Positions 16,007-30,741 of a stretch of DNA of 46,796 bases are shown one piece after another (position 1 is the first letter of the stretch; every line of letters begins with the position of its first letter). The DNA lies in NCBI GenBank assembly GCA_016290665.1, contig JAEEUW010000005.1:1-46796 (forward strand), given 5' to 3'. A model generated the notes under the pieces. The model saw only the letters and a list, made by a program, of their open reading frames with translations. It was not told the origin of the DNA and made no database searches. Position numbers and translations under genes: made by a program. This DNA comes from Clostridiaceae bacterium (GTDB lineage: Bacteria > Bacillota > Clostridia > Oscillospirales > Acutalibacteraceae).

Positions 16007-16046
16007 AACAGTCCGGAATGAGTGTTGGTCATTCCGGACTGTTTTT
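16007..16046. terminator. Bidirectional terminator between cca and aroQ
   Basis: A long stem (AACAGTCCGGAATGA pairing with TCATTCCGGACTGTT) with a 7-nt loop and T-runs on both strands. It ends cca and the aro operon. Confidence 0.92.
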
Positions 16047-16470
16047 ACTTTTGCAGAAAATGGTCGATCGCCAGCAAATATCCCTGCAGCCCCCGGCCGA
16101 TGATGCGCTTTTCGGCATACAGCCCGACGTAGGAAATCTGCCGGAACGGCTCGCGCTTTGTCACGTCGGAGATGTGGACCTCCACCGTCGGGAGGCCGAC
16201 CGCCTGGAGCGCATCCAGAATCGCAATGCTTGTGTGGGTATAGGCGCCGGGGTTGAGAATAATCCCGTCATAGACGCCGTAGGCCGCCTGAATGAGATCA
16301 ACCAGCACGCCCTCGTGGTTCGACTGTCTGCAGTCAACCGTGAGGCCTTTTTCGTCTGCATGAGCGGCGATCATGGCGCACAGGTCGGCATAGGTTTGTT
16401 TGCCGTAGATCTCCGGCTCGCGCAGACCGAGCAGGTTGAGGTTCGGTCCGTTCAATACGAGCAGACGCAT
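16045..16470 (-). CDS. aroQ: Type II 3-dehydroquinate dehydratase
   Basis: Converts 3-dehydroquinate to 3-dehydroshikimate, the third shikimate-pathway step. The 141-residue product has the usual length of the dodecameric type II enzyme. It starts MRLLVLNGPNLNLLGLREPEIYG, including the mobile-loop Arg and Tyr. SNHEGVLVDLIQ, NPGAYTHTSIAI with the active-site Asn/His region, and EVHISDVTKREPFR follow. It is the last gene of the aro operon, and its start lies 19 bp inside the end of the aroE/K fusion. The terminator shared with cca lies immediately after. Confidence 0.96.
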   Translation of the reverse strand: MRLLVLNGPNLNLLGLREPEIYGKQTYADLCAMIAAHADEKGLTVDCRQSNHEGVLVDLIQAAYGVYDGIILNPGAYTHTSIAILDALQAVGLPTVEVHISDVTKREPFRQISYVGLYAEKRIIGRGLQGYLLAIDHFLQK

Positions 16471-17681
16471 GCAATCACCCTTTCCGTTGTGATATGCGGA
16501 TCGTCGCTGACGTCGACGACGTGATCCGCGAAGGATTCATAGATCGGCTGCCGTTCTTCCATCAGCCGGCGCACGGCCGCCTCGTCTTTCGAAAGCGGAC
16601 GTCCGTCGCGCGGCAGAGCGGAAACGTCGCGCCGCAGCCAGACCGCAACACCGTTTTGCCGCAGCGCGTCGCGGTTCTCTTTTTTGAGAATGCTGCCGCC
16701 GCCTGTTGCAATCACGCGCCGCAGCTGCTTGCCGGCTTCCAGAACCGCTTGTGCTTCGCGGTCGCGGAAGAACGCTTCGCCTTTGGCGGCAAACAGGGCC
16801 GGAATCGTGCAGCCGGCGGCCGCCTCCACCATGGCGTCGGTGTCGAGCAGGGCTTTTCCCGTCCGTTCGGCCAAAAGCCTGCCGACGGTCGATTTGCCGC
16901 AGCCGGGCATGCCGATCAGCACGATGTTCTGCTGCTGCGCTTCGATCTTTCGTATGACGGGCTCAATCAGATCGTCAGACAGCTGTCTGCCCGAGAACAG
17001 CCGCGCCGCGGGCAGCGCCTGCGCCACCAGCATGGCAAGGCCGTTGCCGTGGGGGATGCCGCGTTCCCGTGCCTGCCGCAAAAGCGCGGTCTCCATCGGG
17101 TTGTAGATCAGGTCGAGCACCGCTTCCGGCCGGTCGAAGCCGTCAAGCGAAACGGGCGACAGGCCGTTGGCGGGAAACATGCCGACCGGCGTGGCGTTGA
17201 CCAGAATCTGCGCGTCCCGGTGACGGCCGAGATTTTGATAGTTCTCTTCGCCCGTGCGGCTGACAACGATCACCTGTGCTGCGCCGTCTGCATGCAGCAC
17301 GGCCTGCACGGTGCGCGACGCGCCGCCGGAGCCGAGTACCAGAACCTTTTTGCCGGCGAACGAGACGCCGACCCGCTTTGCCAGACAGCGAAAGCCGAAC
17401 GCGTCGGTGTTGTCGCCGAACAGCGTGCCGTCCGGGCGGCGGATCACGGTGTTGACCGCGCCGACGGCCCGGGCCGTTTCGGAAAGCGCATCACAGGCAC
17501 GGAACGCGTCGATCTTATAGGGAATCGTCACGTTGAAGCCGCTGATCGTGTCGTCGGCGAAAAACGCGGGCAGCTCCTCCGGCTCGCGGGGGAACAGCGC
17601 GTAGGGATAGTCGCCGAAGCAGCGGTGGATCTGCGGCGAGAGCGAATGGGCGAGTGAGCGCCCCAACAGTCCGAATTGCAT
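16452..17681 (-). CDS. Fused shikimate dehydrogenase / shikimate kinase
   Basis: A 409-residue two-domain enzyme for consecutive shikimate-pathway steps. Residues 1 to about 248 are AroE: SLSPQIH binds shikimate, catalytic Lys56 is in NVTIPYK, Asp93 is in NTDAFG, and GSGGASR at 117-123 binds NADP. Residues from about 252 are AroK/AroL: Walker A GMPGCGKST at 257-265, DTD at 280-282, Arg in FFRDRE near 306, GGG at 327-329 and the lid Arg361 in GRPLS. All key residues of both domains are present. The linker is only a few residues. It starts 2 bp after pheA and overlaps aroQ by 19 bp. No separate aroK is seen in the operon. Confidence 0.95.
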   Translation of the reverse strand: MQFGLLGRSLAHSLSPQIHRCFGDYPYALFPREPEELPAFFADDTISGFNVTIPYKIDAFRACDALSETARAVGAVNTVIRRPDGTLFGDNTDAFGFRCLAKRVGVSFAGKKVLVLGSGGASRTVQAVLHADGAAQVIVVSRTGEENYQNLGRHRDAQILVNATPVGMFPANGLSPVSLDGFDRPEAVLDLIYNPMETALLRQARERGIPHGNGLAMLVAQALPAARLFSGRQLSDDLIEPVIRKIEAQQQNIVLIGMPGCGKSTVGRLLAERTGKALLDTDAMVEAAAGCTIPALFAAKGEAFFRDREAQAVLEAGKQLRRVIATGGGSILKKENRDALRQNGVAVWLRRDVSALPRDGRPLSKDEAAVRRLMEERQPIYESFADHVVDVSDDPHITTERVIACVCSY

Positions 17682-17683
17682 GG

Positions 17684-18820
17684 TCAGTCCTCTGTGTAGG
17701 TGCCCAGATAGGCGAATTGTTCGCCGTTGCGTTCCAGCCTTGCAATCAGTGCGCGCAGGGCGGGGGAGGAAACGGGCGCTTCAATGTCGAAATAAAACAG
17801 AAACTCAAAGTCGCTGCCCGGAATCGGGCGGCTTTCGAGCTTGGTCAGGTTCAGCCCGAGCGAGGCGAAGCGCGCAATTGCGTGATAGAGCGCGCCGGGC
17901 TTGTGCGCCAGCGTCAGCAGAAGCGACGTCTTTTTCGCGCCGGGATAGATCTCCGGCGTTTTGGAGATGCAGATGAACCGCGTATAGTTGTTCCGGTTGT
18001 TCTGCACGTCGTCGGAGAGAATCTCCAGATCATACAGCTCGGCGCAGTCCCGCGAGCCGATGGCGGCCATATCGGTTCTGCCCGATTCGGCAACCAGCTT
18101 TGCCGCCTGTGCGGTGTTCTGGCAAAGGCGGGGCTTGCAGCCGCTTTGCGTGAGGAAATCGCTGCATTGGCGCAGCGCCTGCTCGTGAGAACAGATTTCT
18201 TTGATCTCTTCAAGCTTCGTGCCGCGCGGCGCAAGCAGGGTGTGCGCAATGTGCAGCTTCATCGAATGCGTGATATAGAAGTGATAGGCGTGCAGCAGGT
18301 CGTAGACCTCGTTGACCGACCCGGCCGTGCTGTTTTCAATCGGCAGCACGCCGTAGCGGCAAAGCCCGGAATCGACCGCCTTGCAGACGTCTTTGAAGGT
18401 GGAAAAATAGAGAATGCTCGGATACTTGAACATCTTGTCGCAGGCGTGCTGCGAGTAGGCGCCCTCCGCGCCCTGACAGGCGATGACGGCGCGCGGCGGG
18501 GGCAGCTGCGGCGTTTTGGCGCAGACGGTTTCCAGCAGCGCGGAGATTTTGCCCGGCTGATTGATGACGGCGTGCTGATAGGAACGGCTGACGTCGAACA
18601 CGGTTTGATACAGCACGCCAGTATAGTCCGCCAGCTCCTCTCCGGCCAGCGCGGTCACACGGTTGAGCACGGCGCGCTCGCGTTCGGAGTCGTAGATCGG
18701 CAGCCGGTTTTCTTTTTTGAAGAGCGCAATCTCTTTTGAGAGCGCCATACGTTTTTGAAAGAGCGCAACGATCTGTTCGTCGATTTGTGAAATCTCGCTG
18801 CGGCAGGTTTGCAGATCCAT
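17684..18820 (-). CDS. pheA: P-protein: chorismate mutase / prephenate dehydratase with ACT domain
   Basis: Bifunctional enzyme that turns chorismate to prephenate and then to phenylpyruvate for phenylalanine synthesis. In 378 residues it shows an AroQ-type chorismate mutase helix domain (1 to about 85: IDEQIVALFQKRMALSKEIALFK), a prephenate dehydratase domain from about 110 (GAEGAYSQHA, LPIENSTAGSV) with NYTRF at about 278-282, and a C-terminal ACT domain with GALYHAI and the ESRP motif at about 329-332. ACT/ESRP binds phenylalanine for feedback inhibition in characterised relatives. It lies between aroC and the aroE/K fusion. Confidence 0.96.
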   Translation of the reverse strand: MDLQTCRSEISQIDEQIVALFQKRMALSKEIALFKKENRLPIYDSERERAVLNRVTALAGEELADYTGVLYQTVFDVSRSYQHAVINQPGKISALLETVCAKTPQLPPPRAVIACQGAEGAYSQHACDKMFKYPSILYFSTFKDVCKAVDSGLCRYGVLPIENSTAGSVNEVYDLLHAYHFYITHSMKLHIAHTLLAPRGTKLEEIKEICSHEQALRQCSDFLTQSGCKPRLCQNTAQAAKLVAESGRTDMAAIGSRDCAELYDLEILSDDVQNNRNNYTRFICISKTPEIYPGAKKTSLLLTLAHKPGALYHAIARFASLGLNLTKLESRPIPGSDFEFLFYFDIEAPVSSPALRALIARLERNGEQFAYLGTYTED

Positions 18821-18838: not shown

Positions 18839-19912
18839 TTAGAAAATCAGGTTTGCCAGCGCAAGGGCGCACGCCGCTTCCACGCAGGGGACGGCGCGCG
18901 GCACCACGCAGGGGTCGTGACGGCCGGGAATCTCCAGCGTGACCGGCTGCCCGGCGGCAAGGTCCACGCTGCGCTGCGGCAGAGCGATGGACGGCGTCGG
19001 CTTGAACGCCGCGCGGAACACGAGCGGCATGCCGGATGCAAGCCCGCCGAGGATGCCGCCGTGGCGGTTCGTTTCGGTTCGGACAACGCCGCCCTGCACG
19101 CAGAACGGGTCGTTGTTTTCGCTGCCGCGCAAAGCCGCGCCGGCAAAGCCGCTGCCGAACTCGATTCCCTTGACCGCGGGAATGGCGAACACACAGCGGG
19201 CAATCTCGTTTTCCAGCCCGCCGAACATCGGCTCGCCGAGGCCGACAGGCAGACCCGTCGCCGCGCATTCGATGACGCCTCCCAGCGAATCGCCACCGGC
19301 CTTTGCGGCCGCTATCGCTTCGCGCATCGCTTCGCCCGCGGCGTCGTTTTGCGTGCAGAACTGCTTTTCTTTCAGGGCGTCCAGTGCGGTGGCATCCAGG
19401 TTTACCGCGTCAAACGGCTCGTCCTTGACGGCGCCGATCTGCGCAATGTGCGCGCCGATGGTGATGCCCTTTTCCTTCAGCAGCTGCATGGCGACCGCGC
19501 CCGCAAACACCAGCGGCGCCGTCATGCGGCCCGAAAAGCTGCCGCCCCCGCGGCTGTCGTTTTGCCCGCCGTATTTCACGTACGCCGCAAAATCCGCGTG
19601 AGAAGGACGAGGAACCGTGCGCAGCGCGTCGTAATCGCCGCTGCGGGCGTCTTTGTTGCGGATGATCGCGCACAGGGGCGCGCCGCAGGTCACGCCGTCC
19701 GTCGCGCCGCTGACAATTTCCGGCAGATCGGGCTCTCTCCGTGCCGTCGCATACGGGGCGTTTCCAGGCGCGCGGCGGGCCAGCATGGCCCGGATGGCCG
19801 GCAGATCGAGGGCGGTTCCGGCGGGAATCCCTTCGATCACGACGCCGATCGCGTCGGCGTGGGACTGGCCGAAGACAGTGATTTTGAAGCGTTCGCCGTA
19901 GCTATTGGACAT
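18839..19912 (-). CDS. aroC: Chorismate synthase
   Basis: Final step of the common pathway: EPSP to chorismate, with reduced FMN as cofactor. The 357-residue protein starts MSNSYGERFKITVFGQSHA, with the His-bearing signature 1 (GQSHADAIGVVIEGIPAG). It continues through PRPSHADFAAYVKYG and DSRGGGSFSGRMTAPLVFAGAVA. The GTG nine bases upstream is rejected because AGGAGG overlaps it; the ATG is correctly spaced. Its start overlaps the aroA end by 11 bp, indicating coupled translation. Confidence 0.97.
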   Translation of the reverse strand: MSNSYGERFKITVFGQSHADAIGVVIEGIPAGTALDLPAIRAMLARRAPGNAPYATARREPDLPEIVSGATDGVTCGAPLCAIIRNKDARSGDYDALRTVPRPSHADFAAYVKYGGQNDSRGGGSFSGRMTAPLVFAGAVAMQLLKEKGITIGAHIAQIGAVKDEPFDAVNLDATALDALKEKQFCTQNDAAGEAMREAIAAAKAGGDSLGGVIECAATGLPVGLGEPMFGGLENEIARCVFAIPAVKGIEFGSGFAGAALRGSENNDPFCVQGGVVRTETNRHGGILGGLASGMPLVFRAAFKPTPSIALPQRSVDLAAGQPVTLEIPGRHDPCVVPRAVPCVEAACALALANLIF

Positions 19913-21134
19913 CTGCGGCACCTCCTTGCGTGCGGTACAGGTTGAAAAAGGTCGGGAATGATTTGTTGATCGCCTGCGCGTTGCGAACGATCACAGGCGC
20001 GCTGCATTTTTGCGCGGCAACCGCTGCCGCCATGACGATCCGGTGGTCGTTTGCGCTGTCCGCCGTGCCGCCCGAAAGAAGCGGCTTGCCGCGGATCAGC
20101 AGGCCGTCCGCGGTCTCCCGCACGTCTGCGCCGAGCGCGCAGAGCAGGGCCGTCGTTGCTGCCAGCCGGTCGCTTTCCTTGTGGCGCAGGTTCTGCGCGT
20201 TCGTGATGCGGCTTTCACCCGCGGCCGTTGCCAGCAGCGCCGCCAGCACCGGCACAAGATCGGGCACGTCGCCGGCGTCGATTTCTGTGCCGCGCAGGGC
20301 AGAACAGTCAAGCTGAAACGTGCCGTCTTCCTGCAGCACCCGCGCGCCGCAGGCGGCCATGATTGCAGGAAACCGGCGGTCGCCCTGCGCCGACTGCGGA
20401 TCCAATCCGCCGACCCGGAACCCGCAGGCGAGCAGCGCCGCCGCGCCCGACCAGTCGCCCTCCGCAGCGAAGGCTCCGCCCCGCAGCGCAGCAGGGGAGA
20501 TCGTGTAAACGTTGTCGCTTTGCGCAATCTGCGCGCCGAAGCGCCGCAGCACGTCAAGCGTGACGCTGAGATAGGGCGCGGATACGATGGGCGGCAGGAG
20601 CGTGAGCGTGCTCGGCTGATCCAGATGCGCCAGCGCGAGCAGCAGACCCGTGGCATACTGCGAGCTCACCGCGCCCGAAATAGCGTAATCGCCCGGCTCC
20701 AGCCTGCCGCCGATGCGGATCGGAAAGCCGGGCTCCACGGAAACGCCGTGCCTTTTCATTTCTTCCAGCAGCACGTCGTTCGGTCGCTCGGGCAATCTGC
20801 CGCGGCCGGTGAAGACCGCTTCTGCGCCGAGCGAAGCGACGACCGGCAGCAAAAAGCGCAGCGTGGAGCCGCTTTCGCCGCAGTCGAGCAAAACATTGTC
20901 GTTCCATTTGGCCGGCGGGGTCACGCTCCACGCGGCGTCCTGTTTTTCAATCGATACGCCGAGCGCCCGCAGGCACCGGACGGTCGCTTCCATATCGTCG
21001 TTTGTATCCGCAATCCGCAGCACGCTCGGCGACTTTGCCAAGGCCGCGCAGATCAGCAGCCGGTGCGCCGCCGATTTGGACGCGGGCGCCTGTACGGCGC
21101 CGTGCGGCGCACAGGGCGTCAGTCGAACGTTCAT
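19902..21134 (-). CDS. aroA: EPSP synthase (3-phosphoshikimate 1-carboxyvinyltransferase)
   Basis: Joins shikimate 3-phosphate and phosphoenolpyruvate. The 410-residue product shows APASKSAAHRLLICAAL at the N-terminus (Lys and Ser of the substrate site) and CGESGSTLRFLLPVVASLG, which corresponds to the NAGTA-type loop. It also has SSQYATGLLLAL and RHKESDRLAA near the end. The loop reads GESGS rather than the NAG[TI]A form, as in many Clostridial (class II-like) enzymes. The ATG overlaps the aroB stop (ATGA). AAGGAG lies upstream. Confidence 0.95.
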   Translation of the reverse strand: MNVRLTPCAPHGAVQAPASKSAAHRLLICAALAKSPSVLRIADTNDDMEATVRCLRALGVSIEKQDAAWSVTPPAKWNDNVLLDCGESGSTLRFLLPVVASLGAEAVFTGRGRLPERPNDVLLEEMKRHGVSVEPGFPIRIGGRLEPGDYAISGAVSSQYATGLLLALAHLDQPSTLTLLPPIVSAPYLSVTLDVLRRFGAQIAQSDNVYTISPAALRGGAFAAEGDWSGAAALLACGFRVGGLDPQSAQGDRRFPAIMAACGARVLQEDGTFQLDCSALRGTEIDAGDVPDLVPVLAALLATAAGESRITNAQNLRHKESDRLAATTALLCALGADVRETADGLLIRGKPLLSGGTADSANDHRIVMAAAVAAQKCSAPVIVRNAQAINKSFPTFFNLYRTQGGAADVQ

Positions 21135-22174
21135 TGCAGCAGCTCCTTCAATTCTTCCACAGGCATCGTCTTCGTCTCGCAAACGCCGATGCGGCGGGGC
21201 AACACCAGCGTGATGCTGCCGCCGGCGCACTTTTTGTCGGCGGTCACGGCTTCATAAAGCGCGGCGTTGGAAAACGCGCAGTCGGTCGGCAGGCCGTTTT
21301 GCAGCAGCGCCGCGGCGATCTCTTCGCGGCAGGGGACGAAGCAAAAGCCCGTCTGCTCTGCAAGCGCGGCGATACGCACCATGCCGACGGCGACGGCCTT
21401 GCCGTGCGAAAGGGAAAAGGCGGAGCCGGCTTCAATCGCGTGGCCGAGCGTGTGGCCGAAATTGAGCAGCGCGCGGCGGCCGGTGTCGAATTCATCCTCG
21501 TTCACAACGTCGCGCTTCATTTCCACGCAGCGCGTGATGACGTCCGTCATCTGCGCGCGGGGGACGCCGTTTTTTACCCGGTCAAACAGCGCTTCGTCGC
21601 CGATCACGCCGTATTTGATCACCTCGGCCATCCCGTCGCGGAAGTCTTCCTCGGAAAGCGTTGCCAGATAGTCCGTGTCGCACAGCACAAGGTCGGGCTG
21701 GCGAAACACGCCGGCGAGATTCTTTCCTTCGGGCAGATCGACCGCCGTTTTGCCGCCGACCGAGGAATCCACCATGGCGAGCAGGCTGGTCGGCATCTGA
21801 ACGAGATGCATGCCGCGCATATAGAGCGCCGACGCCAGTCCGCCGAGGTCGCCGGTCACGCCGCCGCCGAGCGCCACAAGCACGTCTTTGCGCGAAAGGC
21901 GCGCCTGCGCCAGAAACGCCAGAAGGTCAAACAGCGTTTCGGGCGTTTTGCTCTGTTCTCCGTGCGGAAAGACGTAGCTCACACAGTCAACCTCGGCTTG
22001 CCGCAGGTCGTCTTTCAGCGCGGCAAGGTGCAGCGCCGCCACGCGGTCGTCGCTGACGACGCAGACCCGCGGCGTGCCGAAGCGGGCTTTGATCTTTTCG
22101 GCCAGCAGCTTTCGCGCGCCGGAGCCGATGATGACGTCATACTGAATGGATGCAGATACGGTTACAGTTTGCAT
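21131..22174 (-). CDS. aroB: 3-Dehydroquinate synthase
   Basis: NAD- and metal-dependent cyclisation of DAHP to 3-dehydroquinate, the second pathway step. The 347-residue protein has the family markers HGEQSKT, LGGGVTGDLGGLASALYMRG, PTSLLAMVDSSVGGKTAVD with active-site Lys, FRDGMAEVIKYG, and the metal His in LNFGHTLGHAIE. An AGGAGA site precedes the ATG. It is third in the operon after tyrA, and its end overlaps aroA by 4 bp. Confidence 0.97.
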   Translation of the reverse strand: MQTVTVSASIQYDVIIGSGARKLLAEKIKARFGTPRVCVVSDDRVAALHLAALKDDLRQAEVDCVSYVFPHGEQSKTPETLFDLLAFLAQARLSRKDVLVALGGGVTGDLGGLASALYMRGMHLVQMPTSLLAMVDSSVGGKTAVDLPEGKNLAGVFRQPDLVLCDTDYLATLSEEDFRDGMAEVIKYGVIGDEALFDRVKNGVPRAQMTDVITRCVEMKRDVVNEDEFDTGRRALLNFGHTLGHAIEAGSAFSLSHGKAVAVGMVRIAALAEQTGFCFVPCREEIAAALLQNGLPTDCAFSNAALYEAVTADKKCAGGSITLVLPRRIGVCETKTMPVEELKELLQ

Positions 22175-22191: not shown

Positions 22192-23022
22192 TCAGCCGGC
22201 CTGTCGTTTGGTTTGTCTGCCGTCCTCCAAAAGCTGCCGCAGCGCTTCTTCGTCCCCAGCGCCCAGCGCGTCGCGGTACTGCTGCAGATTGGCGATCAGC
22301 AGATCGAGTTCTTCACAAAGGTTGTCGCTGTTTTCCAAAAACAGCTCGGTCCACATGCCGACGTTCAGCTTCGCCACGCGGGTCATGTCCTTATAGCTGC
22401 CCGCAGAAAAGCCTTTGCGCTGCATGGCGGTGGGGCTTTTGACATAGGCGTTCGATACGATATGCGCCAGCTGCGAGGTGTAGGCAATGATCCGGTCGTG
22501 CTCTTCGGGCGTCGTGAAGGTCAGCGTTTCAAAGCCAATGGAAAGGAAAAACGCCTTCACGCGCTCCAGCAGCCGCACGTCGCTGACGCCTTCGGTCGTC
22601 AGAATCATCGATGCGCCGCGGAACAGCGACGCGCGCGCATGGGAAAAGCCCCAGAACTGCGTGCCCGCCATCGGATGGCCGCCCAAAAAGCAAAAGCCGT
22701 GTTCTTTTGCCAGCGTGCAAAGCGGCCGGCAGACCACGCGCTTGACGCCGCAGCAGTCGATCACGATTGTGCCGGGCCGGATAGCGCCGAGGTGGGCTTT
22801 CACATAGTCCACCGCCGCCTGCGGATAGAGCGAAAGCAGCAGCAGATCGGTTTGTTTCAGTTGTTCGTCGTCCAGCTCGCCGTCGATGGCCCCGACCAGC
22901 GCTGCGCCAAGCAGGGCGCTGCGGTCCAGATCGAAGGCGAACACCTTGTGCTCCGTCGTCTCTTTGACGGCCCGGGCCAGCGAGCCGCCGATCAGACCGA
23001 GCCCCACAATGCCGATATTCAT
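22192..23022 (-). CDS. tyrA: Prephenate dehydrogenase
   Basis: Oxidative decarboxylation of prephenate to 4-hydroxyphenylpyruvate for tyrosine. The 276-residue protein begins with an NAD-binding GLGLIGGSLARA. It has DCCGVK and the active-site His in LGGHPMAGTQFWGF, and the helical dimer domain carries AYTSQLAHIVSNAY. There is no clear C-terminal ACT domain, so feedback by tyrosine would have to act otherwise or be absent. It sits second in the operon between aroF and aroB. The symbol assumes prephenate, not arogenate, as substrate. Confidence 0.92.
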   Translation of the reverse strand: MNIGIVGLGLIGGSLARAVKETTEHKVFAFDLDRSALLGAALVGAIDGELDDEQLKQTDLLLLSLYPQAAVDYVKAHLGAIRPGTIVIDCCGVKRVVCRPLCTLAKEHGFCFLGGHPMAGTQFWGFSHARASLFRGASMILTTEGVSDVRLLERVKAFFLSIGFETLTFTTPEEHDRIIAYTSQLAHIVSNAYVKSPTAMQRKGFSAGSYKDMTRVAKLNVGMWTELFLENSDNLCEELDLLIANLQQYRDALGAGDEEALRQLLEDGRQTKRQAG

Positions 23023-23036
23023 GGCCTTCCCTCTCT

Positions 23037-24047
23037 TCAGGCGTCGCCGCGCATGACGGCGCGGATTGCTTTTGCTTCGCGCACCACCTGCGCAAACTGC
23101 GGAGGCGTGAGCGCCTGCGGACCGTCGCAGAGCGCGTGCTTCGGGTCGTTGTGAACCTCGATCATCAAACCGTCCGCGCCGGCGGCCACGGCGGCAAGCG
23201 CCAGCGGACGCACCAGCCGCGCAATGCCGGCGGCATGGCTCGGGTCGGCGATGATGGGCAGGTGGGTTTTTTCCTTGAGCAGCGCAATGGCCGAAATGTC
23301 CATCGTGTTGCGCGTATACGGCTCGAACGTGCGGATACCGCGTTCGCAGAGCATGACCCGGTTGTTGCCGCCGGCCATGATGTATTCCGCACTCATGAGA
23401 AGTTCTTCCATTGTTGCGGAAAGGCCGCGCTTGAGCAGAATCGGCTTTTGGGTTCTGCCGAGCTCCTTGAGCAGCTCAAAGTTCTGCATATTGCGCGCGC
23501 CGACCTGAATCACGTCCACGTTCTCAAACAGGTCGAGGTGCCGCAGGTCCATGATCTCGGTCACGATCGGCATGCCGGTTTCTTTCTTTGCCGTTTCCAA
23601 AAGGCGCAGGCCCTCGGCGCCCATGCCCTGAAACGCGTAGGGCGAGGTGCGGGGCTTGAACGCGCCGCCGCGCAAAAACGCCGCGCCGGCTTCGCGCACC
23701 TCCCGCGCAATCGAGGTGATCTGCGCGGGCGATTCCACCGAGCAGGGCCCTGCAATGAACGCGAGCGTGCCGTCGCCGATCTTTCGGCCGCAGACGTCGA
23801 TCACCGTGTCGTCCGGGTGGAACTTGCGGTTGGCGCTCTTATAGGGCTCCGAAATGCGCGTGACCGATTCCACGATATCCAGGCCGCTGATCAGATCGGC
23901 GTCGAGCCGCGACGTGTCGCCGATGAGGCCGAGCACGGTCTCGTACTGCCCCTCGGAATAATGCACGTCGATATCCATCGACTTCAGCCAGTCGACCAGA
24001 TAGGAAAGCTGTTGTTTGTCGGTTCCTTTTTTCACGACGACTACCAT
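23037..24047 (-). CDS. aroF: DAHP synthase with N-terminal regulatory-type domain
   Basis: Condenses phosphoenolpyruvate and erythrose 4-phosphate, the first pathway step. The 336-residue protein is closely like the Thermotoga type I-beta enzyme. Residues 1 to about 70 form a ferredoxin-like (ACT-resembling) domain, which in that relative binds Tyr/Phe and gates the barrel. From about 90 the barrel shows AGPCSVES, RGGAFKPRTSPYAFQG, QVGARNMQNF, LLKRG, LCERGIRTFE and DPSHAAG, with metal ligands among the Cys, His and Glu residues. The ATG has AGGAGG 9 nt upstream. It is the first structural gene of the operon, preceded by an attenuator-like leader. Confidence 0.97.
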   Translation of the reverse strand: MVVVVKKGTDKQQLSYLVDWLKSMDIDVHYSEGQYETVLGLIGDTSRLDADLISGLDIVESVTRISEPYKSANRKFHPDDTVIDVCGRKIGDGTLAFIAGPCSVESPAQITSIAREVREAGAAFLRGGAFKPRTSPYAFQGMGAEGLRLLETAKKETGMPIVTEIMDLRHLDLFENVDVIQVGARNMQNFELLKELGRTQKPILLKRGLSATMEELLMSAEYIMAGGNNRVMLCERGIRTFEPYTRNTMDISAIALLKEKTHLPIIADPSHAAGIARLVRPLALAAVAAGADGLMIEVHNDPKHALCDGPQALTPPQFAQVVREAKAIRAVMRGDA

Positions 24048-24070: not shown

Positions 24071-24108
24071 TAAAAAGAGCCCCTGCAGCGGAAGTTCACT
24101 GCAGGGGC
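24071..24108 (-). terminator. Attenuator terminator before aroF
   Basis: On the minus strand GCCCCTGCAG, a 10-nt loop and CTGCAGGGGC form a perfect 10-bp stem followed by TCTTTTTA. It lies between the leader peptide stop and the aroF ribosome site. Its 3' arm and loop can alternatively pair with bases just after the leader stop (24137-24150), which fits an antiterminator. Confidence 0.9.
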
Positions 24109-24136
24109 GGGATTCTGAAATCAGAATGAACAGCAC

Positions 24137-24150
24137 AACTTACCGGCTCT
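24137..24150 (-). promoter_or_regulatory. Candidate antiterminator segment of the aro leader RNA
   Basis: In RNA sense this reads AGAGCCGGTAAGTT. AGAGCC is complementary to GGCTCT in the 3' side of the terminator (24076-24081). CGG-T-AAGTT is complementary, with one bulge, to AACTTCCG in the terminator loop (24089-24096). It starts two bases after the leader stop codon, so a ribosome at the stop would mask it. Confidence 0.6.
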
Positions 24151-24151
24151 A

Positions 24152-24211
24152 TCAACTTTTGTCAATAAAGCTAAAGTAATAATAGGCCCATGTTGCGTTT
24201 TTGCGTGTCAT
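24152..24211 (-). CDS. Aromatic amino acid leader peptide of the aro operon
   Basis: A 19-residue ORF, MTRKNATWAYYYFSFIDKS, with Trp at 8, Tyr at 10-12 and Phe at 13 and 15. Six of 19 residues are aromatic and packed into eight positions. GGGAGA lies about 9 nt upstream of the ATG, and a good promoter lies about 32 bp upstream. A rho-independent terminator follows 44 nt after the stop, and then aroF. The layout matches leader-peptide attenuation as known for pheA, trp and his operons. Here it would sense charged tRNA-Tyr, tRNA-Phe and perhaps tRNA-Trp together. Translation and regulation are inferred; the ORF, codon run and hairpin are directly visible. Confidence 0.88.
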   Translation of the reverse strand: MTRKNATWAYYYFSFIDKS

Positions 24212-24242
24212 AAGGCAATTCTCCCGTGCTGTTGTTTTGCAT

Positions 24243-24271
24243 AGTTTATCACTTTAAACCTTTAAAGTCAA
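24243..24271 (-). promoter_or_regulatory. Promoter of the aro operon
   Basis: TTGACT, a 17-bp spacer and TAAACT on the minus strand. The predicted transcript start is near 24236, giving a leader RNA of roughly 190 nt before aroF. Confidence 0.8.
24251..24268. promoter_or_regulatory. 18-bp palindrome inside the aro promoter, possible operator
   Basis: ACTTTAAACCTTTAAAGT has two 8-bp inverted half-sites around a 2-bp centre. It fills the spacer between -35 and -10 and overlaps the -35 end. The position suits a repressor site, but A/T-rich symmetry can arise by chance and the protein is unknown. Confidence 0.45.
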
Positions 24272-24298: not shown

Positions 24299-26089
24299 TT
24301 ACGCGATCGGCTCAAAATCGGCGGCGCCGTGCTTGCAAAGCGGACAGATGAAGTCGTCGGGCAGCTCGTCGCCCTCATAGACGTAACCGCAGATCTTGCA
24401 GACGAATCCCTTTTTGCCCTCGGTCTGCGGCTTGGGCTTCACGTTGTTCTGATAATAGGTGTAGGTCATCGTCTCCTTGTCGGAGATCACGCGCGCTTCG
24501 GTCACGGCGCAGATGAACATGCCGTGGGTGCCGAGGTCGACGTACTGCTCCACCTTGAGCGACATGAACGCGTTGATGAACATCGGCAAGAAGGCGAGGC
24601 CGTTGTCGGACCGCAGCGGTTTCCAGCCCTCGAACTTGTCCTTGTTGCGCCCGCTCTGGAAGCCGAACAGCTCAAAGATGCCGAACGGCGCATCGGTGGA
24701 AAGGCAGTTGACGTTCATGACGCCGGTCTGCTTGATGACGTGGTGGGAATAGTTGTCCTTGTTGATCGTCACGGCCACGCGGTTGGGCGTGTTGGTGACC
24801 TGCGACACGGTGTTGACGATCAGGCCGTTGTCTTTTTTGCCGTCGTTGCTCGTCACAACGTAAAGGCCGTAGCCGATCTTGAACAGGGCGGTCAGATCGT
24901 TTTTGTTGGCGGTCTCGTCGTGCTGCGCCAGATAGTCCTTGCAAAGCTCGTTGGCCAGATCGTCAAGCTGCTGCTTGTTCTGCTCGTTCATTGCGGACAG
25001 GATCTTCACGGTCGTGTCGGCGAAGGTCAGGTTCTTGCAGCCCTCGAGCATTTTCGTCATGGTCTTTGCAGCCATCGGCGCCCAGGAGCCGTTTTCGATC
25101 AGTGCAACGGTCTTGTTCTGGAAGTTGCGCTCGGTCAGATGACCGATGAACTCCCGCATGAACGGGAAGATGTCAGCGTTGTAGGTCGTGGTGGCAAGCA
25201 CGATCTTGCCGTAGCGGAAGGCGTCCTCCACGCATTCGGCCATGTCCTCACGGGCGAGGTCGTTGACGCAGACCTTCGGGCAGCCCTTGGCCTTCAGTTT
25301 TTCGGCCAGCAGCTCCACGGCTTTTTTGGTATGGCCGTAAACGGAGGTATAGAAGATGGCGATGCCCTCTGTCTCCACACCGTAGGACGACCATGTGTTA
25401 TAGAGGCCGAGGTAATAGCCGAGGTTCTCTTGGAGGATCGGTCCGTGCAGGGGGCAGATGGTCTGAATATCCAGCGCGGCTGCTTTCTTCAGCACCGCCT
25501 GCACCTGCGCGCCGTATTTGCCCACGATGCCGATGTAATAGCGGCGGGCTTCGCACGCCCAGTCTTCTTCCGCGTCCAGCGCGCCGAATTTGCCGAACGC
25601 GTCGGCCGAGAACAGCACCTTGTCCGTGCTGTCATAGGTCAGCATGACTTCCGGCCAGTGAACCATCGGCGCGGCGACAAAGTGCAGCTCGTGGTGGCCG
25701 AGTGAGAGCGTGTCGCCCTCCTTGACCACGATGCGGCGGTCCTCATAGGCGGTGCCGAAGAAGTTTTGCATCATCGTGAACGCCTTGGCGGAGGAGACGA
25801 CCACGGCGGCGGGGTAGTTCTTCATGAAGTTGTCGATATTGGCGGAATGGTCCGGCTCCATGTGCTGCACGATCAGATAATCGGGCTGCCGGCCGTCCAG
25901 CGCCGCGGCCAGATTGTCGAGCCATTCGTGGGTGAAGCTGCGGTCCACGCTGTCCATCACGGCGATCTTGTCGTCGAGGATGACGTAGGAGTTATAGGCC
26001 ATGCCGTTGGGCACGATGTACTGGCCTTCAAACAGGTCGATCTGGTGGTCGTTCACGCCGACGTAGCGGATGTCTTTGGTAATGTTCAT
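24299..26089 (-). CDS. Flavodiiron protein with flavin-reductase-like and rubredoxin domains
   Basis: A 596-residue soluble electron-transfer oxidoreductase that in relatives reduces O2 to water and/or NO to N2O, protecting anaerobes. Domain order: metallo-beta-lactamase-like diiron domain (1 to about 240) with ligands in HMEPDH (76-81), His144, Asp163 and His215; flavodoxin domain (about 243-385; FYTSVYGHTKKAVE); a flavin-reductase-like domain (about 405-540); and a C-terminal rubredoxin with CKICGYVYEG and CPLCKHG. All diiron ligands and the four rubredoxin Cys are present. GAGGTG precedes the ATG. No strong terminator lies between it and the aro promoter, so some read-through is possible. 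Confidence 0.95.
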   Translation of the reverse strand: MNITKDIRYVGVNDHQIDLFEGQYIVPNGMAYNSYVILDDKIAVMDSVDRSFTHEWLDNLAAALDGRQPDYLIVQHMEPDHSANIDNFMKNYPAAVVVSSAKAFTMMQNFFGTAYEDRRIVVKEGDTLSLGHHELHFVAAPMVHWPEVMLTYDSTDKVLFSADAFGKFGALDAEEDWACEARRYYIGIVGKYGAQVQAVLKKAAALDIQTICPLHGPILQENLGYYLGLYNTWSSYGVETEGIAIFYTSVYGHTKKAVELLAEKLKAKGCPKVCVNDLAREDMAECVEDAFRYGKIVLATTTYNADIFPFMREFIGHLTERNFQNKTVALIENGSWAPMAAKTMTKMLEGCKNLTFADTTVKILSAMNEQNKQQLDDLANELCKDYLAQHDETANKNDLTALFKIGYGLYVVTSNDGKKDNGLIVNTVSQVTNTPNRVAVTINKDNYSHHVIKQTGVMNVNCLSTDAPFGIFELFGFQSGRNKDKFEGWKPLRSDNGLAFLPMFINAFMSLKVEQYVDLGTHGMFICAVTEARVISDKETMTYTYYQNNVKPKPQTEGKKGFVCKICGYVYEGDELPDDFICPLCKHGAADFEPIA

Positions 26090-30401: not shown

Positions 30402-30737
30402 AGAGTGGATCGGGCAGTCGCGGGTCGCAAGACACGAGGAAAGTCCGAGCTCCATACAGCAGGGTAACGGCTAACGGCCGCCGAGGGTGACCTTAGGGAA
30501 AGTGCAACAGAAAGAAACCGCCGCTTTTGCGGCAAGGATGGAAAGGCGAGGTAAGAGCTCACCGGCGCGCAGGAGACTGCGCGGCCATGTAAACCCTACC
30601 CGGAGCAACACCGACCGGATGCAGCAATGCGCGTTCGCTGGACGTATATCCAAAGGGTGGCTTGAGCCTGTCGGCAACGGCAGGCCTAGACAGATGATTG
30701 CCTTCAATGACAGAACTCGGCTTACAGATCCACTCTC
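30402..30737 (+). ncRNA. rnpB: RNase P RNA (class A)
   Basis: Catalytic RNA that trims the 5' leader of tRNA precursors. The conserved 5' core GAGGAAAGTCCGAGCTCC is at about 30438, and the 3' core ACAGAACTCGGCTTACAG is at about 30711. The P1 helix is formed by AGAGTGGATC (30402-30411) and GATCCACTCT (30727-30736). The internal stretch with GGTAAGAGCTCACC and GTAAACCC fits P7-P11, and the order of conserved regions is that of bacterial class A. Length is about 335 nt. It has a consensus promoter and a GC-rich terminator. Open frames across it are shadows. Confidence 0.97.
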
Positions 30738-30741
30738 TTTT

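Follow-up and report, generated by a model that had tools for sequence, protein, structure and literature searches.

A predicted Phe/Tyr-reading leader-peptide attenuator upstream of the aroF operon in Clostridia

Upstream of aroF in a Clostridiaceae bacterium (assembly GCA_016290665.1, contig JAEEUW010000005.1), a short ORF with a run of aromatic codons is followed by a terminator hairpin, which raises the question of whether the operon is switched by a translating ribosome and, if so, which amino acids that ribosome reads. The stretch analyzed here, called the window throughout, is 46,796 nucleotides long and belongs to a genome of 2.34 Mb in 156 contigs that is 85% complete. Leader-peptide attenuators with regions pairing as 1:2, 2:3 and 3:4 and an intrinsic terminator are known from trp and pheA (pheL) of E. 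coli, and by the usual division Firmicutes rely on T-boxes and Proteobacteria on leader peptides. We consider it highly probable that a classical ribosome-mediated transcription attenuator reading Phe and Tyr codons precedes this aroF operon. The case is built from sequence and comparison, namely a promoter-like site, an ORF and its codons, three pairings, the gene order and a match between codons and pathway; judged on these grounds, the element is real and very probably functional. The core of the original prediction, a leader-peptide attenuator reading aromatic codons before a shikimate/Phe/Tyr operon, is thereby supported.

Organization of the leader and its operon

aroF and seven further aromatic-pathway genes all lie on the minus strand (Table 1); aroE and aroK are fused in a single 409-aa ORF (16452-17681), and the true start of aroA is probably further in than the listed GTG. 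The gene upstream of the leader, at 24299-26089, encodes a beta-lactamase-fold/flavodoxin/flavin-reductase/rubredoxin fusion, and a bacterial RNase P class A RNA is found on the plus strand of the window at 30402-30740. This aroF was present in 8 of 34 genomes of the genus, one copy being split over two contigs, and a ninth match was poor and partial. Because only 8 of the 34 genomes carry it, the aromatic pathway looks patchy in the genus.

Table 1. Features of the leader and the aroF operon, in window positions
Feature	Position	Strand	Remarks
Promoter, sigma-70-type TTGACT-17-TAAACT, TG before -10	24243..24271	(-)	transcription start predicted near 24236
AACAGCAC	24226..24233	(-)	complementary to GTGCTGTT (24136-24129) when 5' leader is free; pairing not conserved
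Shine-Dalgarno-like GGGAG	24221..24225	(-)	9 nt 5' of ATG
Leader ORF MTRKNATWAYYYFSFIDKS, 19 codons	24152..24211	(-)	stop TGA 24154-24152; aromatic run in 69/86 aroF loci
Proposed sensing codons Tyr10-Tyr11-Tyr12-Phe13-Ser14-Phe15	24167..24184	(-)
Region 1, Trp8 codon to GAC	24161..24190	(-)	partner of region 2 (protector hairpin)
Region 2, GTTGATAGAGCCGGTAAGTTGTGCTGTT	24129..24156	(-)	antiterminator 5' strand 24145-24129
Small hairpin ATTCTG/CAGAAT	24112..24127	(-)	between regions 2 and 3
Region 3, GCAGTGAACTTCCG	24089..24102	(-)	terminator 5'-arm end and loop; antiterminator 3' strand
Intrinsic terminator stem-loop (3:4), GCCCCTGCAG/CTGCAGGGGC	24079..24108	(-)	U-run 24076-24072
aroF, DAHP synthase (3-deoxy-7-phosphoheptulonate synthase)	23037..24047	(-)	ATG at 24047
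tyrA, prephenate dehydrogenase	22192..23022	(-)
aroB, 3-dehydroquinate synthase	21131..22174	(-)
aroA, EPSP synthase	19902..21230	(-)	listed GTG start overlaps aroB
aroC, chorismate synthase	18839..19921	(-)
pheA, chorismate mutase/prephenate dehydratase	17684..18820	(-)
aroE-aroK fusion, shikimate dehydrogenase and shikimate kinase	16452..17681	(-)
aroQ, type II dehydroquinase	16045..16470	(-)
Terminator-like hairpin after aroQ	16043-16007

The landmarks on which the original prediction was built are all present in the sequence: a promoter-like site, a 19-codon ORF with Trp8, Tyr10-12, Phe13 and Phe15, and a terminator with a U-run followed by aroF. In order to see whether the ORF recurs, 88 aroF loci were gathered by aroF alone, the leader sequence being left unused: 80 from a contig scan (the best 80 of 592 candidates, with gut Clostridia and Oscillospiraceae bins as the nearest named relatives) and another 8 within the genus, window included. 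Two loci with less than 300 nt upstream were excluded from the ORF count, and of the remaining 86, 69 had an ORF with at least five Phe, Tyr or Trp in nine residues, compared to 6.1 expected from shuffles. At least six of nine were aromatic in 60 loci (0.8 expected) and at least seven of nine in 40 (0 of 2,580 shuffles), while 17 had no aromatic ORF. The aromatic run thus recurs among relatives. Such leaders had been called unusual in front of aroF, which does not hold for the window's own clade. The ORF and a terminator occurred together in 65 of the 88 loci, and these were used for the pairing tests (16 were dropped for want of an ORF and 7 of a terminator). Examples of the leader peptides are MKRNIFAAEYFYFYFINKS (L019) and MRNVLFTASYYFYFYFYWDEVRAI... 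(L071), translation being a prediction. Among cultured bacteria, the element is carried for example by Sporobacter termitidis (L071) and Angelakisella massiliensis (L028). The other genus members have a Shine-Dalgarno sequence of the AGGAG type.

The promoter-like site of the window has 9 of 12 matches, which by itself is not above chance (2 such sites in 11 kb compared to 2.1 expected). A promoter upstream of the ORF nevertheless recurs, with at least 10 of 12 matches in 56 of the 65 loci against 2.6% of block shuffles, and is lacking altogether in 3. The fold of the 171-nt leader gave z = -5.9 against shuffles, and z = -2.5 when the leader was cut before most of the terminator 3' arm. A chance origin of the leader was rejected on the fold of the whole leader together with the excess of ORFs given above. 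The hairpin might instead be a mere 3' terminator of the flavoprotein gene with the ORF incidental, as that gene ends at 24299, about 190 nt before the hairpin and on the same strand. This has next to no chance of being correct, since the promoter recurs, and the ORF and the mutually exclusive pairings are conserved where aroF lies downstream.

A T-box, a TRAP-type element or a metabolite-binding leader would be a familiar solution in this genus, where T-boxes are common: at E <= 1e-3 the window's genome has ten of them, and genomes of the genus have 5-12 each. However, no Rfam 15 family reached its cut-off at the window leader or in 20 related loci. T-box identity was rejected for lack of a match to RF00230 in these same sequences. 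A TRAP-regulated leader has about 11 GAG/UAG repeats spaced 2-3 nt apart, whereas only four scattered GAG/TAG triplets were seen by eye between the predicted start and region 2, and TRAP identity was rejected as well. We therefore regard this whole group of alternatives as extremely improbable. T-boxes and leader attenuators coexist in the genus, as both were found in the window's genome and in genus genomes.

Pairings and ribosome position

Region 2, the segment past the aromatic run, carries a GCUG anchor, and region 3, made of the end of the terminator 5' arm and the loop, carries a CAG anchor. The antiterminator helix of the window pairs CGG(U)AAGUU(GU)GCUGU (24145-24129) with GCAGU(G)AACUUCCG (24102-24089), and it excludes the terminator. 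Compared to dinucleotide shuffles, the 2:3 pairing reached p <= 0.05 in 41 of 65 loci, the window among them (p = 0.035), and fell short in 24. When partners were swapped among 64 loci (L031 was excluded as a near-copy of L028), native pairs had a mean of -17.8 kcal/mol and swapped pairs -12.9 (z = -13.5), and none of 20,000 permutations was as low. These pooled values overstate the significance, because related loci are not independent and shared base composition can inflate swap tests. The window's own pair stood mid-table among swapped partners, with rank 0.47 by column and 0.33 by row, so that the antiterminator is weak in the window itself.

For column support, a MAFFT alignment was made of 37 of the 65 loci, picked for visible GCTG/CAG anchors, and its figures therefore lean towards the scaffold; the 2:3 structure counted on it came from one of the 37 (L022). 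In these chosen loci 81.5% of 2:3 cells were paired, compared to 33-53% for slid partners, with a covariation of 0.269 compared to 0.035-0.118 and two-sided changes in 30 cells. Column pairs with a two-sided change numbered 7, compared to 6.2 in shuffles (203 of 500 were as high). The 3:4 terminator, the intrinsic terminator before the first structural gene, had 91.6% of cells paired and 79 cells with two-sided changes. Within the genus, 7-13 of 13 column pairs of 2:3 were formed, L102-L104 reaching only 7-8 unless the register is shifted. A further set of loci was found with a covariance model that lacked the 2:3 pairs but included conserved letters. In this set 2:3 reached p <= 0.05 in 43 of the 58 loci of the aroF group, with 15 falling short, and in 7 of the 13 remaining loci, with 6 falling short; the swap test gave z = -14.4. 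The set is only partly independent, as some species overlap and the leader of L097 is found again in L132, L133 and L135. Its three ilvB loci all fail the test; in these the cut was probably placed too far along for region 2 to be included.

The protector 1:2, which overlaps the sensing codons, is the weakest of the three pairings. It reached p <= 0.05 against shuffles in 27 of 65 loci (window, p = 0.02), and each of the 8 genus members can form 10 or 11 of the 11 pairs of its apical helix. Its column support in the 37 chosen loci was modest, with 65.7% of cells paired compared to 42-53% when slid, and its 31 two-sided cells were no excess over slid versions (21-35).

The original prediction had placed antitermination elsewhere, in a pairing of the sequence after the stop codon with the terminator 3' arm (AGAGCC at 24150-24145 with GGCTCT at 24081-24076) and loop (AAGTT at 24141-24137 with AACTT at 24096-24092), and had hinted at a further fold between AACAGCAC (24233-24226) and GTGCTGTT (24136-24129). 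All these complementarities are present in the window. The AAGTT/AACTT half stands, as it lies inside the conserved 2:3 helix, whereas the 3' arm is not the conserved partner: region 2 is matched by the loop and the end of the 5' arm. In the genus AGAGCC forms 6 of 6 pairs with the 3' arm in three members, 5 in four and 4 in one, kept largely by G-U pairs against the pyrimidine tail, and this pairing may add to the switch. The additional 5' fold was not borne out, as the other seven members of the genus form only 3-5 of its 8 pairs. When the whole part upstream of the aromatic run was allowed to pair with the region after it, the best pairing had p = 0.53 in the window, and 16 of 65 loci passed. 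Thus, of the exclusive pairings, the terminator and 2:3 are conserved, and the one with the 5' leader is not.

Folding was then made to depend on the ribosome, with stall folds scored on the RNA below the ribosome at a point where region 4 does not yet exist. Once all RNA on the upstream side of the ribosome had been removed, at least five expected 2:3 pairs formed in 64-65 of 65 loci for a stall in the aromatic run and in 37 for a ribosome at the stop; the stall exceeded the stop by at least three pairs in 55 loci, and the stop exceeded the stall in one. Under this treatment the window yielded one and the same antiterminator for every stall from codon 9 to codon 15. At the stop, 9.8 of 13.5 expected pairs were still kept in the truncated fold, because the stop codon of the window precedes region 2. 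Masking, which had been suggested as a check on the switch, gave a divided answer: 2:3 forms once the upstream RNA is removed, but loses in the window under a ribosome mask with the 5' leader free, where the expected pairs number 1.2 for codon 8, 2.7 for codon 10 and 0-0.3 for codons 11, 12, 13 and 15. According to the folding model, the antiterminator of the window is thermodynamically weak. Since the terminator wins in every fold of its full-length RNA, the switch must be kinetic if it operates.

We propose that RNA polymerase would start near 24236 and a ribosome would begin the leader peptide. With charged Phe- and Tyr-tRNA plentiful, the ribosome would reach the stop. Region 2 would then lie under the ribosome or be paired with region 1, and the terminator would form, ending transcription near 24072. 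A shortage of Phe- or Tyr-tRNA would make the ribosome stall on Tyr10-Phe15, masking region 1 and freeing region 2, which would pair with region 3 before region 4 is made. Read-through would then carry the polymerase into aroF-tyrA-aroB-aroA-aroC-pheA-aroEK-aroQ, presumably as one transcript. Termination would be the default, because without translation region 2 would be held by region 1 and the 5' leader.

Amino acids read by the leader

The original prediction had the peptide sense Trp, Tyr and Phe together. Leaders of the genus have WAYYYFSF in three members, while Phe, Tyr or another residue replaces Trp in the other five, and Trp occurs in 3 of 58 leaders of the aroF group. None of the 8 genus genomes that carry this aroF (74-90% complete) yielded an N-terminal domain of TrpE, nor did a search of the window's genome turn up trpE. 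Among order relatives, 15 trpE loci were compared, a set that leaves out three further matches (L206-L208); a T-box reached the Rfam cut-off in 5 of them, and the T-box core motif was present in 13. Trp is thus rare in the leaders, the TrpE domain is absent from the 8 genomes and trpE of order relatives mostly carries T-boxes, and for these reasons Phe and Tyr are the likely signals read by the window leader, and that part of the claim stands. Trp sensing was rejected on the same evidence; Trp8 most likely arose where a Phe codon was replaced in this lineage, and is probably no sensor of Trp.

The original prediction in full, with three amino acids sensed, antitermination through the 3' arm and a further switch at the 5' end, is hence very unlikely, even though each of its complementarities exists and AGAGCC/GGCTCT keeps 4-6 of 6 pairs in the genus; the distribution of Trp, the T-boxes at trpE and the conserved partner of region 2 all count against it. 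Short ORFs with two Trp in nine residues were seen at 5 of the 15 trpE loci. In one of them (L200), an ORF MLYTKRWWRPKRR... lies behind AGGAGG about 193 nt upstream of trpE, 3' of a T-box-like motif, and is a possible Trp leader beside a T-box.

Spread of the element, codon exchange and known systems

A covariance model (R1) detected the element in 80 of 295 genomes of the order at E <= 1e-3, and at E <= 1e-4 in 34 of 392 genomes of the class and 5 of 299 of the phylum, the window's genome being included each time; as only 8-10 candidates per genome were scored, the true numbers may be higher, while some weak matches are false. We examined 78 matches, comprising 58 loci from the order and class scans and 20 picked mainly from genomes with two matches, a choice that favours genes other than aroF; the phylum matches L187-L190 lie outside the 78. 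The downstream gene was aroF in 57 (one weak, L126), tyrA in 3, pheA-like in 5, tyrS in 1, leuA in 1 and ilvB in 3. One further gene was cut off (L124, counted as aroF), and 7 matches had no such biosynthetic gene and were dropped (L172, L174, L177, L181, L182, L183 and L185), several of which look like chance.

The codons of the leader change with the gene behind it. Leaders before pheA had a mean of 8.0 Phe and 0.2 Tyr (n = 4; for example, MNKFAFTSVNFFFFAFTFEDI), the fifth pheA-like gene (L152) being an exception with a mixed Phe/Tyr leader, and leaders before tyrA had 7.0 Tyr and 2.3 Phe (n = 3; MVTRLSAAAYYYLSLVYYYYYYDK...), L184 having 5 Tyr and 4 Phe. The single tyrS leader contains YYY (MTTFLRNRSHKQAYYYLFS), the single leuA leader has 7 Leu (MKSQFSAQLNLLNLALLLQG), and those before ilvB had a mean of 14.7 Ile, Leu or Val (n = 3; ..IIIVVVVSLSVI..). 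The ORF picker favours aromatic and branched clusters, which biases these absolute counts upwards, though not towards one gene's own amino acid. With the one mixed exception, the sensing codons match the downstream pathway.

This match also bears on a nascent-peptide arrest leader of the TnaC or SecM type, in which the peptide itself would stall the ribosome on free Phe or Tyr. FAAEY-like residues do recur before the aromatic run. However, no fixed arrest motif is visible, the peptides differ in length, order and end, and codons that change with the pathway fit the sensing of charged tRNA; in addition, the GCAGC of the FAAE codons can, in examples, pair with GCUGC in region 2. Peptide arrest is accordingly highly improbable, and attenuation by charged tRNA is retained. 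We give an even chance to a broader reading, in which Clostridia use one modular scaffold (GCUG region 2, CAG region 3 and a terminator) whose leader codons are exchanged per operon: Phe and Tyr at aroF, Tyr at tyrA and tyrS, Phe at pheA, Leu at leuA, and Ile, Val and Leu at ilvB. The scaffold would work beside T-boxes, which appear to keep trpE, and some of its leader ORFs would seemingly sit at the RNA 5' end without a Shine-Dalgarno sequence.

The mechanism itself is an old one, and earlier publications have sketched Phe/Tyr uORFs at shikimate genes; the present additions are the group and its range, the antiterminator and the exchange of codons. Like the E. coli trp and pheA leaders, the window has a short ORF with runs of regulated codons, the 1:2, 2:3 and 3:4 pairings and a terminator before a biosynthetic gene. 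It differs in clade, in the predicted joint reading of Phe and Tyr, and in an operon that spans the whole shikimate-to-Phe/Tyr path. A leucine-rich attenuator peptide has reportedly been studied in Staphylococcus aureus, again leader-peptide attenuation in a Firmicute, but for a branched-chain pathway and in Bacilli. In the Bacillus cereus group, Eubacteriales and Erysipelotrichales, histidine leader attenuators (PMC9413887, PMC2965389) likewise act where T-boxes serve elsewhere, but at histidine genes and through His codons. By its description, the uORFC-13-1 motif (PMC8632094) is a predicted uORF with at least one Phe codon and a terminator alongside, upstream of Acholeplasma aroF, with 24 representatives only from Acholeplasma and environmental sequences. 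It shares aroF, the uORF and the terminator with the window, whereas the accessible description gives no Phe/Tyr run and names no antiterminator, though another base-paired substructure is mentioned. At genes of shikimate metabolism, two uORFs containing Phe and Tyr have been predicted from a set of five genomes including Clostridium novyi (PMC6429828), and these may be the same element; the legend of Fig. 6 does not name the genome, and the accessible text describes no switch, distribution or pathway swapping. No aroF leader was found in the accessible parts of PMC4833913 or PMC11109978, and we recognized no clostridial aroF, tyrA or pheA attenuator of this form in the literature outside subscription journals and supplements.

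The predicted attenuator of the aroF type is widespread in Clostridia and absent from Rfam 15, and since no family exists there, genome annotation overlooks the element. Across a large set of gut Clostridia, most of them uncultured, leader-peptide attenuation looks like the usual control of the first shikimate enzyme. Given the match between codons and pathway, some 60 bases are enough to tell to which amino acid an operon responds, and the element offers a natural case for comparing how sensing codons and RNA pairing are adjusted jointly during evolution.

Two loci from bins labelled Treponema and Treponemataceae (L034 and L049) have an aroF 67% identical to that of the window, Tyr/Phe-rich leaders and a 2:3 pairing with p = 0.005 and 0.025. 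Four other spirochaete-labelled loci (L040, L042, L088 and L091) had no such ORF. The two may reflect transfer of gene and attenuator together, or mis-binning. In eight leaders, four before aroF (L025, L045, L059 and L065) and four before pheA (L155, L161, L164 and L166), the -10 element ends 6-7 nt before the ATG and no good Shine-Dalgarno site was seen, so that these ORFs look leaderless.
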